Notes under the pieces: model-generated | Databases searched by the model: none | Told to the model about the DNA's origin: nothing | The model's input: the letters and a program-made list of their open reading frames with translations, nothing else | Assembly: GCA_014384375.1 (NCBI GenBank) | Contig: JACNFY010000014.1 | Span: forward strand, 1 to 45,299 | Length of the DNA: 45,299 nucleotides | Origin: Nanobdellati archaeon | GTDB lineage: Archaea > Nanobdellota > Nanobdellia > Woesearchaeales > GCA-2686295 | Direction of reading: 5' to 3' | Made by a program: the position numbers and the translations under genes | Shown here: piece after piece, positions 4,305 to 44,662 of the stretch | Layout: each line of letters starts with the position of its first letter | Numbering within the stretch: the stretch's first letter is position 1

Positions 4305-4424
4305 TGTCGGCGGGGGGATTTGAACCCCCGATCACCAGATATCCCCATGAGGTCTATCATCGCTTTTCAGCTCAACACTCAAATATATGAGTCTGGGGCA
4401 ATAACCAGTCTATACTACGCCGAC
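4305..4424 (-). tRNA. tRNA-Met(CAT) with a 45-base intron
   Basis: On the reverse strand the acceptor GTCGGCG (4424-4418) pairs with CGCCGAC (4312-4306), discriminator A. T-arm GGGGG-TTCAAAT-CCCCC. Anticodon stem CCAGA/TCTGG with loop CTCATA+A gives anticodon CAT. The loop is interrupted after position 37 by 45 bases (4385-4341). The BHB is relaxed: CTC pairs with GGG and the interior closes with TGAG/CTCA. The spliced tRNA is 75 bases. An elongator Met tRNA is the likeliest reading; it lacks typical archaeal initiator features, but an Ile2 tRNA (CAU modified at C34) is not excluded by sequence alone. Confidence 0.88.
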
Positions 4425-4482
4425 AACGGAAATAGCCGTTGACGCTATAAGCCTCCTTTCAGTCGGGATGCTACGCATCAAG
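4425..4482 (-). ncRNA. Structured tRNA-leader module, copy 1 (tRNA-Met)
   Basis: Reading 5' to 3' on the reverse strand: hp1 GATGC-GTA-GCATC (4479-4467); then, with no spacer, hp2 CCGACTGAAAGGAGG (4466-4452); a 10-base linker CTTATAGCGT; and hp3 CAACGG-CTATTT-CCGTTG (4441-4424), whose last G is G1 of tRNA-Met. In hp2 the outer two bases pair (C-G, C-G), a GA/A internal loop follows, and a C-G, U-G pair closes a GAAA loop. A TATA-like stretch (TAAATATATATAAGG, about 4498-4510) lies roughly 25-30 bases before hp1, so transcription probably starts at hp1. Confidence 0.75.
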
Positions 4483-5458: not shown

Positions 5459-6088
5459 TTATAATCCCTCTATTTTTTCCTTTAATTCCGAAAGATCAGC
5501 TATCTTGTTCTCATACTCTCTGGTGTCTCTTCTGTCGACGAGAATCGCTTTTATGCCTGCTTTCTTGGCACCTTCTATATCTGTTGGTATGGCATCACCA
5601 ACCATGATTACCTCTGACTTTTTCAGTTTTACCTTCTTCAAAGCCTGTGCAAATAGCTTTTTATCTGTTTTTAGCATTCCATGATCACAGGATAATACTA
5701 TGTCATCGAAATATTTCTTTAGTTTAAACTTATCAAGTAGTTGTGGAACAGAGAGATTGTCAGTGTTTGATATCAGCACTAATTTGTAATCCTTCTTTAA
5801 ATCTTCTAAAACTTCAATGGTTTCTGGGAATGGTTTGCAAAGGATGGTGTTCTTGTTCCACATACCCACAAGCTTGTCATACACAAATTCTGGTATGTTG
5901 ATATTGAACTCCTGAGTAACATTTTGAAAAGCTTCAGTCAAGGTTTCAACTTTCTTGGTCATGAAAGCATTTTCAAACCTCTCAATGTACTCTGAGAAAG
6001 GCATGTCTAACCTCAAGATTCTCTGAGCTCTTCTCGATGGACTTGGAAATAGCCCGTTCTCAACAACTGTGCCCCAGAAATCAAACAA
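5459..6088 (-). CDS. HAD-superfamily hydrolase
   Basis: 209 residues with all four HAD motifs. Motif I is FDFWGTVV at the extreme N-terminus: the nucleophile Asp is present, but the second Asp of DxD is Trp. Motif II is ISNTDN, motif III the Lys of KTDKKLF, and motif IV MVGDAIPTDIEGAKKAG. A helical cap lies between motifs I and II. Likely a small-molecule phosphatase or a dehalogenase-like enzyme; substrate unknown. The start is odd. The only acceptable in-frame codon is TTG at 6088, preceded by AAGGG; the codons before it (reading KLKGI) would complete the first strand but offer no normal start. An upstream ATG near 6128 is out of frame. Confidence 0.8.
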   Translation of the reverse strand: MFDFWGTVVENGLFPSPSRRAQRILRLDMPFSEYIERFENAFMTKKVETLTEAFQNVTQEFNINIPEFVYDKLVGMWNKNTILCKPFPETIEVLEDLKKDYKLVLISNTDNLSVPQLLDKFKLKKYFDDIVLSCDHGMLKTDKKLFAQALKKVKLKKSEVIMVGDAIPTDIEGAKKAGIKAILVDRRDTREYENKIADLSELKEKIEGL

Positions 6089-7391: not shown

Positions 7392-7440
7392 TTAAATAAT
7401 CTCGTGAAAAGAATATTCTTATAAGAATAATCCTTATCAG

Positions 7441-7525
7441 GGTTAATCGGGATCATGCTCCCATTGGTCGCGATGCTTACGCATCAAGCTATGGGGCTGA
7501 GCATTAGCGAATGCCACATTTCCGG
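7441..7525 (-). ncRNA. Structured module, copy 2 (downstream of tRNA-Ala(GGC))
   Basis: Reverse strand, downstream of tRNA-Ala(GGC): an imperfect hairpin around 7493-7523 containing GCATTCGCTAATGC; then hp1 GATGC-GTAA-GCATC (7485-7472); then directly hp2 GCGACCAATGGGAGC (7471-7457). The following bases (ATGATCCCGA then TTAACC) do not form the third hairpin seen in the other copies, so this copy is degenerate or truncated. No tRNA follows; the next gene in this direction is the AdoMet-synthetase-like CDS at 7391. Confidence 0.6.
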
Positions 7526-7531
7526 AGCTAC

Positions 7532-7582
7532 TATCAAAAATCGTAGATTTTTGGGAGTCCCAAAACGTTCTGCGTTTTGATA
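7532..7582 (+). repeat. Three-way-junction inverted-repeat element, copy A
   Basis: Read on the plus strand: outer stem TATC/GATA, hairpin AAAAATC-GTA-GATTTTT, 9-base linker GGGAGTCCC, and hairpin AAAACG-TTCTG-CGTTTT. The same order, stem lengths and 9-base linker ending TCCC recur at 20660-20721. Lies downstream of tRNA-Ala(GGC) between the tRNA trailer and module copy 2. Function unknown. Confidence 0.6.
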
Positions 7583-7600
7583 CAACGGAAAAAGTAGTTA

Positions 7601-7765
7601 TGGACGGACCGGGACTTTCACCAGCGAATACCATTTCAAGCCACTACGCAGGATTTTGCAAAGCAAATATCCTGCTGACGTTAGCCGTCAACGGGTATCC
7701 GTTGTTTTGAACCCGGGGCCACTCGATTGCCAACCGAGTGTTCTACCAGACTGAACTATCCGCCC
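7601..7765 (-). tRNA. tRNA-Ala(GGC) with a 91-base T-loop intron
   Basis: Reverse strand: acceptor GGGCGGA (7765-7759) pairs with TCCGTCC (7608-7602) and contains the G3-U70 pair that specifies alanine. D-stem GTTC/GAAC; anticodon stem CTCGG/TCGAG with loop TTGGCAA, anticodon GGC. A 91-base insertion (7705-7615) splits the T-loop between positions 59 and 60. The central BHB helix TTCA/TGAA pairs perfectly, with bulges AAA and AGT. Removal gives T-loop TTCAAAT and a 74-base tRNA. The intron opens with hairpin CAACGG-ATAC-CCGTTG and contains a second hairpin, GCAGGAT/ATCCTGC. CCA is not encoded. Confidence 0.9.
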
Positions 7766-7828
7766 AACCTTTTGAGAAAAGCTTGGACAAAACCAAGCTC
7801 CTTTCAGTCGCATTGAACTTTGTTCAAC
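7766..7828 (-). ncRNA. Structured tRNA-leader module, copy 3 (tRNA-Ala(GGC))
   Basis: This lies between the two alanine tRNAs on the reverse strand. hp1 is TTGAAC-AAA-GTTCAA (7827-7813). One base later comes hp2 GCGACTGAAAGGAGC (7811-7797), then the 10-base linker TTGGTTTTGT. A longer imperfect hp3 (7786 to 7764) closes CCAA against TTGG, with an inner CTTTT/AAAAG stem, so it again pairs with G1 of the following tRNA. hp1 shares no stem sequence with other copies but keeps the shape. Both tRNAs are probably one transcript, because no TATA box fits immediately before hp1. Confidence 0.7.
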
Positions 7829-22822: not shown

Positions 22823-25800
22823 TTACTTTTTCAGATAATCCAAAGACACTGGGATGTCAGAGGGGGTTGTAGTGGCGTTTTCTATGTAATTAGGTGCTTT
22901 GGGTGATTGTATGATTATTTTTCTCATATTTGATGTCATGTCTGAGTTTGATTCTATATATTGGGCTAGGACTTGTGTTGTTAATCCGAATCCTGCTCCG
23001 TAGAATGAGCTTAGGCTTATGAATTGGTGTCCTGTTTCGTTTATTCCATCAACACCAATTATTGGCGGGTCAGTGCCACCAGGGTCCTCCATATCAAACA
23101 TTGCTTGCAAAATTTCTATGTAAAACGTATATTTATCTGGCCATGGGGGGTATCTTGCATGACATTCAATTATTTCATAAGTTTGATCGTCATAAGTTGT
23201 TCCATTTGTTCCAGGACTTGGAAAGCTTGAATCAACTGCTGTCCAAAGATATGGTTCAGTTGGTGTTTCTGTGCTTTGTATTATTGGTAGTGTTAGTCTC
23301 ACATGGTTTACTGCTTGTATTTCATCTTTCAAATCTTGAGTCCATTGTAGCCTTGTTGAATCAGGTGGCATATAGTTAGTATTCCACCACATTGGTGCGT
23401 CTTGGTCGTCATTGCCAAAAGCTACTATCACTGCGCCCATGTAAGTTAGTGCACTACCAAGAGGAAAACCAAATACTATCTTGTTTGCATATATCGTGTC
23501 TGTTGAGCTGCTGATTGTTATAGGACTACTATTATCAAGACCATGCCTTTTTTCGAATGGGATTTCATCTCCTGGTCTCATAAGGCCTAGATATGACTCT
23601 GCATTCCACCATGAAGCACCATCCCATGTGTTCGGGTTTGTTGCGTTGAATTCGTATGTTCCTTGTGGTAGTTCAACTGTTAGTTCTCCGTTTGTGCTGT
23701 AGTATGTGCTGTCTCCTATCCAGAATGTGCTTGTGTCTGCTGTTATTGTGCTGTCTGTGTAGAAGTCTTTTAGTATGAAGTGCACTGTCGCCATTGGTGG
23801 TGGTGTTACTGTTATGTCAAATTGGTTGCTTTGTGCTGTGTATTCTCCGTCTGTGCCTTCAAGTATTAGTCCTGTTATTGATCCGTTCCAACTTGGTGTT
23901 GGCGTTACTGTTATTATGCTGTCTTGGATTGTTTGGGTTGCATTGACAAGATTTTGTATTATATATTCTAATGTATCGTTATCTATGTCAGTAAAGAATG
24001 GTGCTGCGTTGATTACTAGGAATGAATCTTGTGGTACTGTGTAGTTTGGTACAGTTCCTGCAAATACTGGGGCGTCATTTACAGCTGCTACTTCTATGTT
24101 GAATTGATTGCTTTGTGCTGTTGCTGCTGTGTCTTGGGCTTCTATTATTAGTCCTTCTAGTGTTCCGTTCCAATTAGCAGAGGGCGTGATTGTTATTATT
24201 CCGCTTTCTGTTGCTTGCGTCGCATTTGAGAGGTTTTGTATTATGTAATCCAATGTGTCATTATCTACGTCTGTGAAGTATTGGGCCACATTAATTGTCA
24301 GCAAAGAGTCTTCAACTGTCTCTTGATTTGGCACTGTGCCGGCAAACACAGGCGCATCATTAACTGCCTCAACAGTTAAGCTGAACGGATTTAAGTTTAT
24401 AGCTGCTTGACCGTCACTAACATTTACCACTATGCTATCTATTCTTCCATTATAATCTTGCGAAGGCGTTATCGTGATCGTGTCTGCTTCAACTTCATAA
24501 GTCGCATCTGGCAAAGTACTTATCAAATACTGCAAGCTGTCATTGTCAACATCTGTTACATACGTTGGCCTCATCACTAAGCTTAATGGCTCATCCTCGT
24601 TTGTTGTCTGGTTTAGGATGTCTGCCACTTGCTCTGGCGGTGTGTTTTCTAGTGTGTCTTCATACACAGTTATATTAAATGAGTTTAGGTCTATATTGTG
24701 CTCTCCATCTGATATGTTTATCACTACACTGTCTATTGTTCCTACATAGCCAACTGTTGGTATTATCTTCAAAGTGTCTAGTACTTGCTCGTAGGTCGCG
24801 TTCTGTAGTTCAGGTATGTCTGCTGTTAATGGGTCGTTTTCTGGGTCTGATACGTACTGGCTTATCAGCAGTTGCACCAGTGAATCAACTGCTATGCTTT
24901 GGTTTGGTATCTGCGCTGTCTGTGTTGGAGGTTGATTAACGTATGGCACAAATACTCTCAGCATCAACGAGTCCCTCAACGCTGCATCCGTGCTGTCAAC
25001 TATATCTATCCATGTTGAAAGCGTTTCTGGCTGTGCAGCTATGTAAGTCACTAAGCTTTCTTCTACGTCAAAGTTTGCGCTGTCTCTCGGCACGTACAAG
25101 CCTGTTTCATCATTGTATACAAAGTCGTTCATGTTTACTTGTATTGTGTCTCCTACGTTCAGCACTTGGTCTGGTATCGTGTCTAAAATGCTAGGTCCTA
25201 CATTTCCGATTATATCTCCTAGGTTTATATCAGCGTTTTCATGGTTGAATGCAAACTCCAAAGTACTTGTGTTTTGTTTTATGAATCTCAAGGTGTCTGT
25301 TTCTGTCAGTGTTTTTGCAGTATCCACCAATCCATAGCTGCTACTCACTATTCCTAGTCCTGAGCTTCCTCCTCCATCTAGGAGTGTCATCTTTTCTGCT
25401 TTCACTTGGTCGTCTGCTCTTAGGACATATATGTATATTCCACTTGCCACTCCTTTTCCATATTTGTTTAATCCTCCCCAGCTAAGAGTATAATAACCTG
25501 CTCTTGGCAAATTTATGTTGTCTATCTCTTGTCCTAATATATTATAAATCGTAACTGTTCCTAAACTTAGTGTTTCTACTTCAAACTTTGTGCTTGGATT
25601 GAATGGGTTCGGCCAGTTGTGTCCTAACCTGTATTCGTCAGCTACAAATGTGTCGTCAGGATCTACACTTACGCTTGGTATTTGTATATTAAATTCTCCT
25701 GTTAGACCTGTTTGTACAATATTCCCTGTTTCTAGGTGCTCGACATTTGCTTCTATTATTGGGTTTCCTAGTTGGTCGGCGTAGTTCCCAGACACTATGA

Positions 25801-26239
25801 TATCATTCTGTGATTGTGCAAACATAATGTCAGGACCAACGCTAATTCCTAGTGTAGCTAATCCAAGCATTGCTGTAGCAATCGCAGGTCCTTTCTCGCC
25901 CAGGCCTTTTCTAACTAGCTCAAAAACCAGTCCATCTGTGCCAAATGTCAGCTTAGACTCTAAGAAACCTTCAGAAACATAGTCAGTTATATTTAAGTTT
26001 GAGAATGCTTCATCCACTTGCTCAAGACTCACACCTTTCTTTAAATAATATGTTCCATCAGCCTCTACAATTAGTTTATTAAATAATTCTTCAGAATCGT
26101 TGACGAATTCTTTCTGTGCAAAATAGACTTCTGGTTCGAATTCTGGTGAGTCTATCAGGTTCAGAATTTCCTCTCTACTAAAGCCATCTCTATACATAGA
26201 TTTAATAATTTTCTTTTCTAATTCGCTGAATTCAGCCAT
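22823..26239 (-). CDS. Giant surface protein with T9SS-like module and cadherin-like repeats
   Basis: 1138 residues from ATG 26239, about 30 bases after the TATA box (ATTTATATATG); an in-frame TTG at 26257 precedes it. Residues 1-110 are a charged, probably cytoplasmic domain; 115-135 form one membrane segment. A carboxypeptidase-regulatory-like domain (about 142-190) follows. Residues 205-285 match the Bacteroidota type IX secretion sorting domain: NWPNPFNPSTKF, VTIYNILGQEI, KGVASGIYIYVLRA, KMTLL. That domain is normally C-terminal, here internal. Four cadherin-like repeats start near 436, 533, 623 and 718; two carry VNDAPVFAGTVPN. A C-terminal region (about 830-1138) has no recognised family. 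Probably anchored by the membrane helix and involved in contact with other cells (inference). Confidence 0.85.
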   Translation of the reverse strand: MAEFSELEKKIIKSMYRDGFSREEILNLIDSPEFEPEVYFAQKEFVNDSEELFNKLIVEADGTYYLKKGVSLEQVDEAFSNLNITDYVSEGFLESKLTFGTDGLVFELVRKGLGEKGPAIATAMLGLATLGISVGPDIMFAQSQNDIIVSGNYADQLGNPIIEANVEHLETGNIVQTGLTGEFNIQIPSVSVDPDDTFVADEYRLGHNWPNPFNPSTKFEVETLSLGTVTIYNILGQEIDNINLPRAGYYTLSWGGLNKYGKGVASGIYIYVLRADDQVKAEKMTLLDGGGSSGLGIVSSSYGLVDTAKTLTETDTLRFIKQNTSTLEFAFNHENADINLGDIIGNVGPSILDTIPDQVLNVGDTIQVNMNDFVYNDETGLYVPRDSANFDVEESLVTYIAAQPETLSTWIDIVDSTDAALRDSLMLRVFVPYVNQPPTQTAQIPNQSIAVDSLVQLLISQYVSDPENDPLTADIPELQNATYEQVLDTLKIIPTVGYVGTIDSVVINISDGEHNIDLNSFNITVYEDTLENTPPEQVADILNQTTNEDEPLSLVMRPTYVTDVDNDSLQYLISTLPDATYEVEADTITITPSQDYNGRIDSIVVNVSDGQAAINLNPFSLTVEAVNDAPVFAGTVPNQETVEDSLLTINVAQYFTDVDNDTLDYIIQNLSNATQATESGIITITPSANWNGTLEGLIIEAQDTAATAQSNQFNIEVAAVNDAPVFAGTVPNYTVPQDSFLVINAAPFFTDIDNDTLEYIIQNLVNATQTIQDSIITVTPTPSWNGSITGLILEGTDGEYTAQSNQFDITVTPPPMATVHFILKDFYTDSTITADTSTFWIGDSTYYSTNGELTVELPQGTYEFNATNPNTWDGASWWNAESYLGLMRPGDEIPFEKRHGLDNSSPITISSSTDTIYANKIVFGFPLGSALTYMGAVIVAFGNDDQDAPMWWNTNYMPPDSTRLQWTQDLKDEIQAVNHVRLTLPIIQSTETPTEPYLWTAVDSSFPSPGTNGTTYDDQTYEIIECHARYPPWPDKYTFYIEILQAMFDMEDPGGTDPPIIGVDGINETGHQFISLSSFYGAGFGLTTQVLAQYIESNSDMTSNMRKIIIQSPKAPNYIENATTTPSDIPVSLDYLKK

Positions 26240-26322
26240 TCTCCTCTGATTATACAACTTCTCATATATAAATGTTTCGATTTTGTATTAACTGTGAAGT
26301 GACAAAAATCTTTTCACAAGGT

Positions 26323-26355: not shown

Positions 26356-26569
26356 GGGGCTGTGGTCTAGCTTGGTATGATACGTGCCCGGGGCGCACGT
26401 GATCCGGGGTTCAAAACAATGGTTTCGCCCATTGACGACGAAGTATGTTTCGCTTCGCTCAAGCATACAGTATCGAAACCACACCTGACGCTGTAAAGCG
26501 TCGCAACTGCAAGGAGCATGATGGTGTCGACGGAAATGACCGTCGTTGGCGAAAGTCCTCGCAGCCCCA
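26356..26569 (+). tRNA. tRNA-Pro(GGG) with a 140-base T-loop intron
   Basis: Acceptor GGGGCTG (26356-26362) pairs with CAGCCCC (26562-26568), discriminator A. The D-arm TGGTCTAGCTTGGTATGAT is typical of archaeal tRNA-Pro. Anticodon arm CGTGC-CCGGGGC-GCACG gives anticodon GGG; position 33 is C rather than the near-universal U. A 140-base intron (26416-26555) lies at position 59/60. The T-stem CGGGG/CCTCG flanks a BHB with three paired bases (TTC/GAA) and bulges AAA and AGT. Splicing restores T-loop TTCAAAT and a 74-base tRNA. The intron starts with hairpin CAATGG/CCATTG and holds a complete copy of the structured tRNA-leader module. Confidence 0.9.
26487..26545 (+). ncRNA. Structured module, copy 4 (inside tRNA-Pro intron)
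   Basis: hp1 GACGC-TGTAAA-GCGTC (26487-26502); then immediately hp2 GCAACTGCAAGGAGC (26503-26517, with a GCAA loop); 10-base linker ATGATGGTGT; hp3 CGACGG-AAATGA-CCGTCG (26528-26545). A 27-base stretch running from the linker through hp3 is identical to the leader of tRNA-Gly (reverse strand, about 44630-44604), showing recent common origin. It is preceded in the intron by another hairpin, GTATG/CATAC (about 26443-26468). Confidence 0.75.
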
Positions 26570-31235: not shown

Positions 31236-31350
31236 CTACGTTTTCGGCCGATAGCCATCGAAGTGCGGCGTAAAGCCACACAGCGCTTGACGATGAAGTC
31301 GTCGCGACTGCAAGGAGCATCTAAGTGTCAACGAATTAATGTCGTTGTTC
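31236..31350 (+). ncRNA. Structured module, copy 5, in tRNA-Arg trailer
   Basis: Downstream of tRNA-Arg come, in order: hairpin CGAT-AGCC-ATCG; hairpin GTGCGGC/GCCACAC (within AAGTGCGGCGTAAAGCC, the 17-base repeat shared with the tRNA-Arg intron); hp1 GACGA-TGAAG-TCGTC (31289-31303); then immediately hp2 GCGACTGCAAGGAGC (31304-31318); 10-base linker ATCTAAGTGT; hp3 CAACGA/TCGTTG (31329-31347). No tRNA follows. This is the most complete free-standing copy and could be an independent small RNA processed from the tRNA transcript. Confidence 0.7.
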
Positions 31351-43198: not shown

Positions 43199-43335
43199 TG
43201 CCCCGAGCGGGATTCGAACCCACGTCCTCGGCTGTTTTTGAAACGAAGATTTTCTCCGAATTCTCGAAAAGCCGAGATGATTGGTTACCCAACGAACAGA
43301 TTTCTCTGAATGCTTCCGGGCTACACCATCGGGGC
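43199..43335 (-). tRNA. tRNA-Glu(TTC) with two introns
   Basis: Reverse strand: acceptor GCCCCGA/TCGGGGC, discriminator A, T-arm GTGGG-TTCGAAT-CCCGC. Intron 1 (43315-43285, 31 bases) lies in the D-loop after G19; helix GCCC/GGGT, bulges GGA and AAC, inner stem CAGA-GAAA-TCTG. Splicing restores the Glu/Asp-type D-loop AGCCCGGCCA. Intron 2 (43264-43234, 31 bases) is at 37/38: stem TCGGC/GCCGA, helix TTTT/AAAA, bulges CGA and ACA. Anticodon TTC. The mature tRNA is 75 bases. The charging enzyme GltX is encoded at 13070. Two stray fragments of this gene's 3' end lie at 41799 and 42742. Confidence 0.93.
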
Positions 43336-43392
43336 AAGGGTATCGTTCCTTGAGCCCTAATGCCTCCCGTTGGTCGGGACGCTTCGCGTCAA
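43336..43392 (-). ncRNA. Structured tRNA-leader module, copy 6 (tRNA-Glu)
   Basis: Reverse strand: hp1 GACGC-GAA-GCGTC (43390-43378); then directly hp2 CCGACCAACGGGAGG (43377-43363); 10-base linker CATTAGGGCT; hp3 CAAGG/CCTTG (43352-43335), ending on G1 of tRNA-Glu. A TATA-like AATTTAAAAA is centred about 33 bases before hp1 (near 43423), so the transcript should begin at or just before hp1. Confidence 0.75.
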
Positions 43393-44532: not shown

Positions 44533-44604
44533 TGCGGCGGCTGGGATTTGAACCCAGGTCACAGCGTTGGCAACGCCGAATACTAACCACTATACTACCA
44601 CCGC
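44533..44604 (-). tRNA. tRNA-Gly(GCC), intronless
   Basis: Reverse strand: acceptor GCGGTGG/CCGCCGC (one G-U pair), D-arm GTAGTATAGTGGTTAGTAT, anticodon arm GGCGT-TGCCAAC-GCT region with anticodon GCC, T-arm CTGGG-TTCAAAT-CCCAG, discriminator A. 72 bases, no intron, CCA not encoded. Preceded by a structured leader module whose last hairpin ends on G1. Confidence 0.95.
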
Positions 44605-44662
44605 GACGGTCATTTCCGTCGACACCATCAACCTCCCGTTGGTCGGGACGCTAAAGCGTCAA
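44605..44662 (-). ncRNA. Structured tRNA-leader module, copy 7 (tRNA-Gly)
   Basis: Reverse strand: hp1 GACGC-TTTA-GCGTC (44660-44647); directly hp2 CCGACCAACGGGAGG (44646-44632), identical to the tRNA-Glu copy; 10-base linker TTGATGGTGT; hp3 CGACGG-AAATGA-CCGTCG (44621-44604), ending on G1 of tRNA-Gly. A TATA box TTTTATAAAT (about 44692-44700) lies roughly 36 bases before hp1. Twenty-seven bases of linker and hp3 are identical to the copy inside the tRNA-Pro intron. Confidence 0.78.

Follow-up and report, generated by a model that had tools for sequence, protein, structure and literature searches.

In the Thermoproteales, very similar BHB introns are found at several positions in different tRNA genes and are regarded as recent gains (PMC4090602). 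In Nanoarchaeum equitans, C/D box sRNAs are placed in a tRNA intron, in tRNA-sRNA precursors and beside split genes, and their mobility has been suspected (PMC3491384). The hairpin elements of mitochondria, described as GC clusters in yeast (PMC4478555) and also from sponges (PMC2800124), are tiny and non-coding, with a conserved structure, short flanking repeats and rapid turnover. A model proposed for Caldiarchaeum has tRNA fragments duplicated around the insertion of a mobile element and links this to intron gain (PMC3293823), while casposons, which are large and code for Cas1, target tRNA 3' ends and duplicate a short segment (PMC6614799).

The folded RNA module described here, of which a full copy is placed in the intron of a tRNA-Pro(GGG) gene, has something in common with each of these systems. 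As in the Thermoproteales (PMC4090602), similar BHB introns are found in different tRNA genes, but the module is also present in leaders, trailers and protein-gene ends, with target repeats, and in a DPANN lineage. It shares with the sRNAs of N. equitans (PMC3491384) the position of a small RNA in tRNA transcripts and a suspected mobility, although it has no consistent C/D boxes and its structure is different. Its size, conserved structure and turnover recall the mitochondrial hairpin elements (PMC4478555, PMC2800124); however, the repeats of the yeast GC clusters have 2-3 nt (PMC4478555), whereas those of the module mostly have 14-22 nt, and the module has tRNA hosts and a sense bias. Duplicated tRNA pieces around an insertion are also part of the Caldiarchaeum model (PMC3293823), which concerns a 1.8-kb element with an ORF in one tRNA, in contrast to about 60-150 nt, no ORF and many genes in the present case. 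Casposons (PMC6614799) share the tRNA 3'-end targets and the short duplication, but no Cas1 was found in the eight genomes of the module's host family. By analogy, the closest match would be the transposed introns of the Thermoproteales combined with the suspected mobility of the C/D sRNAs of N. equitans. We believe that the module is probably the core of a small, non-coding and apparently mobile RNA cassette of one DPANN-archaeal family. As to its class, it would be a mobile element, for which flanking repeats and empty sites were found in a minority of the copies.

The features of the tRNA-Pro(GGG) locus, in the coordinates of the window (the whole stretch of 45,299 nucleotides that was analysed), are the following:

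26356 to 26569, plus strand: tRNA-Pro(GGG) gene, with acceptor stem GGGGCTG/CAGCCCC and T-stem CGGGG/CCTCG
26356 to 26415, plus strand: 5' exon of tRNA-Pro(GGG), up to T-loop position 59 (from the sequence and the BHB placement)
26416 to 26555, plus strand: T-loop intron of tRNA-Pro(GGG) (59/60), 140 nt, BHB type
26417 to 26434, plus strand: 5' hairpin of the intron, CAATGG/CCATTG, with covarying pairs; it recurs in the pattern search
26443 to 26468, plus strand: second hairpin of the intron, GTATG/CATAC, upstream of the module (from the sequence and the intron alignment)
26485 to 26545, plus strand: full copy of the module (covariance model R1, 66.5 bits, this copy being in the training alignment)
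26487 to 26502, plus strand: hp1, GACGCT-gtaa-AGCGTC, with covariation at 3 of 5 pairs across copies
26503 to 26517, plus strand: hp2, a tandem-G.A hairpin with a triloop, in the Pro copy GCAACTGCAAGGAGC, where A.A replaces one G.A
26518 to 26527, plus strand: 10-nt linker, proposed to pair with the hp3 loop as the 5' strand of a pseudoknot that is weak in the Pro copy
26528 to 26545, plus strand: hp3, CGACGG-AAATGA-CCGTCG, with covariation at 5 of 6 pairs
26556 to 26569, plus strand: 3' exon of tRNA-Pro(GGG) (from the sequence)

The first-pass annotation had described a 140-nt T-loop intron with hp1, hp2, the linker and hp3, and all of its coordinates proved to be exact. Both Rfam and ARAGORN miss this tRNA gene, presumably because of the T-loop intron; as the tools missed many intron-bearing tRNAs, tRNA identities were called by eye from the anticodons.

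BHB borders are the signature of introns that are removed by the archaeal splicing endonuclease. In tRNA-Pro(GGG) the exon bases TTCA pair with the intron bases CGAA, with A.C at the last pair, and the two bulges have 3 nt each (AA^A and AG^T). The general form in these T-loop introns is an exon TTC(A/G), or TTCR, that makes the central helix with an intron (C/T)GAA, or YGAA. The pair between exon R57 and intron Y covaries (A-T or G-C) in eight of nine introns of the same type, the A.C of tRNA-Pro(GGG) being the sole mismatch. The 5' hairpin CAATGG/CCATTG is common to all T-loop introns of this type, and the second hairpin is also present in others. Judged from its sequence, the Pro intron is a member of the archaeal BHB class of tRNA introns, and its removal by EndA is predicted from the BHB signature. 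The anticodon loop of this gene (CCGGGGC) has C33, where the relative G002 has U33. C33 and the single A.C of the splice motif may be signs of a gene in decay.

Changes among the copies bear on the structure of the module. In hp2, two pairs that enclose an internal 5'-GA/3'-AG tandem and a triloop were 100% paired over 14 copies, the outer pair being C-G or G-C (7:7) and the inner one C-G or U-A (8:6); in the relatives from another genus the inner stem of hp2 has three pairs and the G.A tandem is retained. Compensating changes were likewise found in hp1 and hp3. Taking the helices of the module together, 90.9% of the cells were paired and 34 cells held a double change, against 12.7 after shuffling, and the helix covariation score was 0.41 against 0.17 when shuffled, collapsing to far lower values in slid registers.

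The complementarity between the linker and the hp3 loop leads us to propose that they form a pseudoknot. At least four contiguous pairs are available in 24 of 48 copies, compared with 11.2 when the loops are permuted, and the complementarity was register-specific when tested over 45 distinct copies. In class I, defined by a loop without TGATAA, one linker-loop register was 71% paired (p 0.001) and the other registers 26-57%; the first core pair is A-U, G-C or U-A and the second U-A, C-G or A-U. The corresponding register of the TGATAA class was 78% paired, with a loop so nearly constant that permutation is of little use. The putative pseudoknot is weak in both the Pro and the Gly copies, which have two adjacent pairs each. 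In minimum-energy folds, hp3 was absent from the isolated Pro intron and present in the whole pre-tRNA.

By inspection, neither a C box (RUGAUGA) nor a D box (CUGA) is constant over the aligned module copies, and no H/ACA hallmarks were evident, tRNA or target sequence being placed directly 3' of hp3. On this inspection the module does not appear to be a C/D or an H/ACA RNA. An identity as Pab19 was discarded, since the best Rfam match reached 20 bits against a cut-off of 55 bits.

A pattern based on hp2 gave 22 matches in the 1.27-Mb genome to which the window belongs, against 5 for the reversed control. The covariance model R1 was built from 14 copies of this genome, including those of Pro and Gly, and only matches outside these training copies are independent of it; its E-values are rough, and copies in this genome were counted at E < 0.01. 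The search with R1 identified 21 copies in the window's genome and further ones in four other congeners (6, 9, 13 and 6) and in two species of another genus (4 and 2). In total 61 copies were analysed, about 40 of them in relatives of the same family. R1 found no module in a fifth congener (84% complete), and elsewhere among the relatives it gave only two doubtful matches. Two matches in G008 were set aside, as they look like chance and have no visible tRNA context.

In a search of 371 genomes of the phylum the module was confined to one family, bar isolated marginal matches, and in the module-bearing loci searched with Rfam at the gathering threshold only tRNA matches were obtained. The module is a previously uncatalogued RNA family, not in Rfam and restricted to one family of DPANN archaea, tiny and of the symbiont type, a lineage for which the best protein relatives with a name carry the labels Nanohaloarchaea and Aenigmatarchaeota; these comparisons all rest on draft, metagenome-type genomes. 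Carriage by viruses was also considered. Nine pattern matches in IMG/VR, mostly on GC-rich contigs and without the full module, were judged to be chance, and the best full-length module match there had at most 12.9 bits.

Besides the copy in the Pro intron, the following sites were found in the window:

4424 to 4481, minus strand: module in the leader of tRNA-Met(CAT)
7428 to 7487, minus strand: module 3' of tRNA-Ala(GGC), before the downstream gene (R1)
7610 to 7703, approximate bounds, minus strand: T-loop intron of the same type in tRNA-Ala(GGC), without the module
7765 to 7827, minus strand: divergent module in the leader of tRNA-Ala(GGC) (R1, E 0.009)
31287 to 31347, plus strand: module 3' of tRNA-Arg (R1)
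43335 to 43392, minus strand: module in the leader of tRNA-Glu(TTC)
44604 to 44662, minus strand: module in the leader of tRNA-Gly(GCC), ending at tRNA base 1

Over the whole of this genome, leader modules are found at Gly, Met, Glu, Ala, Pro(TGG), two Val and Thr tRNAs. Most leader modules end at or beside tRNA base 1, and they often begin about 10 nt or less past the expected transcription start. Several of these sites are filled in relatives: that of tRNA-Gly(GCC) in G004 and in G006, which is of another genus, that of tRNA-Met(CAT) in G004, with compensating pseudoknot bases, and that of tRNA-Ala(GGC) in G004, as a clear module. Gly and Leu leader sites are filled in two genera. T-loop introns with the module are those of Pro(GGG), Gly(TCC), Ser, Leu and one more tRNA in the window's genome and two in G001, and D-loop introns carry it in G005 and G007. 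The 3' trailer copies belong to Arg, Ala and Lys tRNAs in the window's genome and to Val, Pro, Leu and Gly tRNAs in relatives; the one of tRNA-Arg has a second hairpin before it, like the module copies in introns, and a degraded repeat of the tRNA 3' end after it. Three protein genes in all have a module at their 3' end, one encoding ribosomal protein L35Ae (Pfam) in the window's genome and two called from C-terminal sequences as AAA-ATPase-like (two genera) and thermosome-like. When orientation was assessed by the T-arm motif, a tRNA was present exclusively on the strand of the module for 49 copies and exclusively on the other strand for 2. This sense bias may be due to an RNA route or to selection against antisense copies, which the data do not separate.

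Other repeated elements were observed. In G005 (loci L098, L119 and L123) the hp3 loop of modules contains another hairpin element, TATCAAAAATC..GATTTTTGGGA..TTCCAAAAA..TTTTTGATA, and at about 7500-7600 of the window (minus strand) the trailer of tRNA-Ala has stretches similar to it. The motif CTAC(G/T)TTTTC is placed directly after several tRNA 3' ends, at 31236, 43516 (minus strand), about 7607 (minus strand) and 26570; it starts larger hairpin stretches and is possibly a third type of element. A 227-nt direct repeat (71%) is also present in the window, at 23804-24030 and 24086-24312, inside the gene for a large Ig/cadherin-type surface protein (22823-26257, minus strand).

Some T-loop introns have no module, namely those of tRNA-Pro(TGG), of a tRNA in locus L023 and of the tRNA-Ala(GGC) of the window, and their 5' hairpin and 3' end are the same as in the filled ones. 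Filled and module-free introns have the flanks ATCGAAACCAC and GCGAAAG in common, and between these flanks there are two bases in one short intron, against the module and a few flanking bases in Pro. Since the short introns share the flanks but are without the module, we suggest that the module entered a T-loop intron lineage and that filled introns were then copied; alternatively, the short introns may have lost it. The second hairpin and CACACCTGAC are common to the filled introns of Pro, Gly(TCC), Ser and Leu; near-alike introns of this kind are present in different tRNA genes of this genome and missing from tRNA-Pro loci of the relatives compared.

The tRNA-Pro(GGG) gene of G002 has neither an intron nor a leader module (synteny not established), so the module in the Pro intron is not kept in all relatives. 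In the case of tRNA-Pro(TGG), there is a leader module and a T-loop intron in the window's genome and a leader module and a 3' copy in G004, while G003 and G005 have no leader module, T-loop intron or 3' copy (synteny again not established). UbiA was tried as a synteny anchor, and no tRNA-Pro adjoining it was found in the relatives. We take the module-free T-loop introns, the intronless gene of G002 and the differing tRNA-Pro(TGG) loci to be empty sites, paralogous or orthologous, with the same proviso on synteny.

The first-pass annotation had also reported that 27 nt of the linker and hp3 match the tRNA-Gly leader exactly, and this is correct: the sequence TGATGGTGTCGACGGAAATGACCGTCG is present at 26519-26545 (plus strand) in the Pro intron and at 44604-44630 (minus strand) in the Gly leader. 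Its proposal of recent copying or conversion between these two sites is not supported, as the 27-mer is found elsewhere and each of the two copies is nearest another one. Contig C39 has a T-loop intron with this complete 27-mer, and three further introns share 25 nt of it, two of them on C13 and C18 and the third in another species, G001. The closest copy to the Gly leader is the G004 leader (0.93 identity) and that to the Pro intron is the C39 intron (0.89), compared with 0.77 between the Pro and Gly copies. From these alignments, the 27-nt identity is best read as a subfamily consensus. The nearest neighbour was in the same genome for 27 of 61 copies, against 12.0 expected from the labels; this excess means that within-genome amplification or conversion occurs, not demonstrably between Pro and Gly.

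Direct repeats scoring at least 12 bracket 12 of the 61 copies. The two controls of this bounded test, random sites and mismatched flank pairs, gave 0.60% and 0.66%, respectively. An earlier test with loose limits (15/63 copies, 59/745 in the control) was weakly informative because shared tRNA sequence inflated the control. Many of the repeats have 14-22 nt, their lengths vary and some abut the module exactly. In the tRNA-Gly of G005:C70 a flush 18-nt repeat, CCGGTCGCCGCATATTTT, stands on each side of exactly 60 nt. Further examples are a 15-nt repeat at the tRNA-Lys of the window's genome (ATCTCGTCCGGCCCA), an 18-nt repeat at tRNA-Pro in G004 (ATCTGGGCAGCCCCATAT), a 14-nt repeat taken from the 5' end of the tRNA-Thr of the window's genome (TTGCCTCTGTAGCT), the repeat at the end of the thermosome-like gene (GAATGCCACCTATGTA) and one of 21-22 nt, with one or two mismatches, at the end of the AAA-ATPase-like gene in two genera. 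At the 3' module copies, the repeated part of the tRNA starts at about the T-loop and runs to the 3' end. We take these repeats to be probable target-site duplications. A clear flanking repeat is absent in 49 of the 61 copies, including the Pro intron and leader copies, which may be explained by the decay of older repeats.

Three observations can be added on single loci. In L029 (G000:C3, about 5600-5800, minus strand) a tRNA-Thr has two tandem modules, between which its 5' end is partly repeated (TTGCCTCTGTAGCT). The end of the same AAA-ATPase-like gene carries the module and target repeats in two genera (L085 of G002 and L094 of G006). In the gene of G002, the copies of the repeat differ solely at third codon positions.

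We therefore favour a mobile cassette on the strength of the repeats and the empty sites together, and its history could be pictured as follows. The cassette, of about 60 nt, would comprise hp1, the tandem-G.A hairpin and hp3 with its loop pairing to the linker, and would insert in sense orientation into transcribed genes, mainly tRNA genes, leaving a direct repeat of the target in a substantial minority of copies. In the Pro case, the module would have come to be inside a T-loop intron lineage of EndA type (BHB) that also exists without it, and the filled intron would afterwards have been copied among tRNA genes. The RNA of the module might be freed by tRNA processing, through RNase P in leaders, EndA in introns and RNase Z in trailers, and the mobile intermediate would presumably be RNA or single-stranded. 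Leader copies that are kept across species, such as those of Gly and Leu, may have been domesticated.

The strong conservation of structure and the leader sites shared across species could equally be compatible with a host function. The module might have been in the first place a family of small RNAs serving the host, such as guides or protein-binding RNAs, which the cell carries in tRNA transcripts for their release and which spread by duplication or conversion and not by transposition. The leader modules at the same tRNAs across species and genera, with compensating changes, are consistent with this, as are the three contexts, each releasable by tRNA enzymes, and the known presence of archaeal C/D sRNAs in tRNA introns and tRNA-sRNA precursors (PMC3491384). 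However, a constant single-stranded segment that could act as a guide is missing from the module, direct repeats lying flush against copies in many unrelated targets are hard to reconcile with such an origin, and copy number varies from 0 to 21 between close relatives, with none in G003. We consider this origin unlikely.

Much less probable still is a cis-acting element that served the transcription or 5' maturation of tRNAs and strayed into introns. It would account for the position of the leader copies, which stop at the tRNA 5' end or next to it and often begin no more than some 10 nt downstream of the expected transcription start, but introns, 3' trailers and the 3' ends of protein genes also contain many copies, many tRNA genes have no module and the genome has an ordinary RNase P RNA. 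The earlier suggestion that the module is independent of tRNA 5' processing agrees with its movement among leaders, introns and other sites.

The duplication by 3' copies of the tRNA from around the T-loop to the 3' end resembles the duplication of a short tRNA 3' segment by casposons, and it might point to an integrase of the Cas1/casposase type inserting at tRNA 3' ends. This is hardly credible, since no Cas1 was found in any of the eight genomes of the family that were searched, the targets include tRNA 5' ends and protein genes, and the length of the repeat varies. Among other candidate enzymes, a tyrosine recombinase is present in all eight genomes, including the module-free one, and a Y1 transposase in four of the eight, not in the window's genome, and neither is discriminating. 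A reverse transcriptase (RVT_1) was found in only three carriers, in two of them beside RT-16 RNA and in none near a module. These searches thus picked out no mobilising enzyme. Reverse transcriptases adjoining RT-16 RNA, which we take to be a marker of diversity-generating retroelements, were seen in several relatives (L128-L131, L133 and L134).

Chance similarity of short GC-rich hairpins, which the shortness of the hairpins might suggest, is refuted for practical purposes by the reversed control for hp2, the covariation, the copies here and in relatives and the excess of flanking repeats.

Returning to the mobile cassette, we are tempted to go further and to suggest that it represents a new class of mobile elements with RNA as the moving form, in which a pseudoknotted RNA of ~60 nt is freed from pre-tRNAs by ordinary processing enzymes and re-inserted in sense orientation, with target-site duplication, into tRNA genes and other genes that are transcribed. 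This is a speculative extension, in our opinion clearly less likely than not. If it is true, insertions would create new archaeal tRNA leaders and introns.

For the origin and spread of archaeal tRNA introns, transposition has been inferred previously. In this family one defined cassette, an RNA family new to Rfam and with a proposed pseudoknot, can be traced among close relatives through their introns, filled or empty, and their leaders, trailers and gene ends. Since the flanking repeats would mark insertion events, the gain of introns and leaders in tRNA genes may be traceable here step by step.
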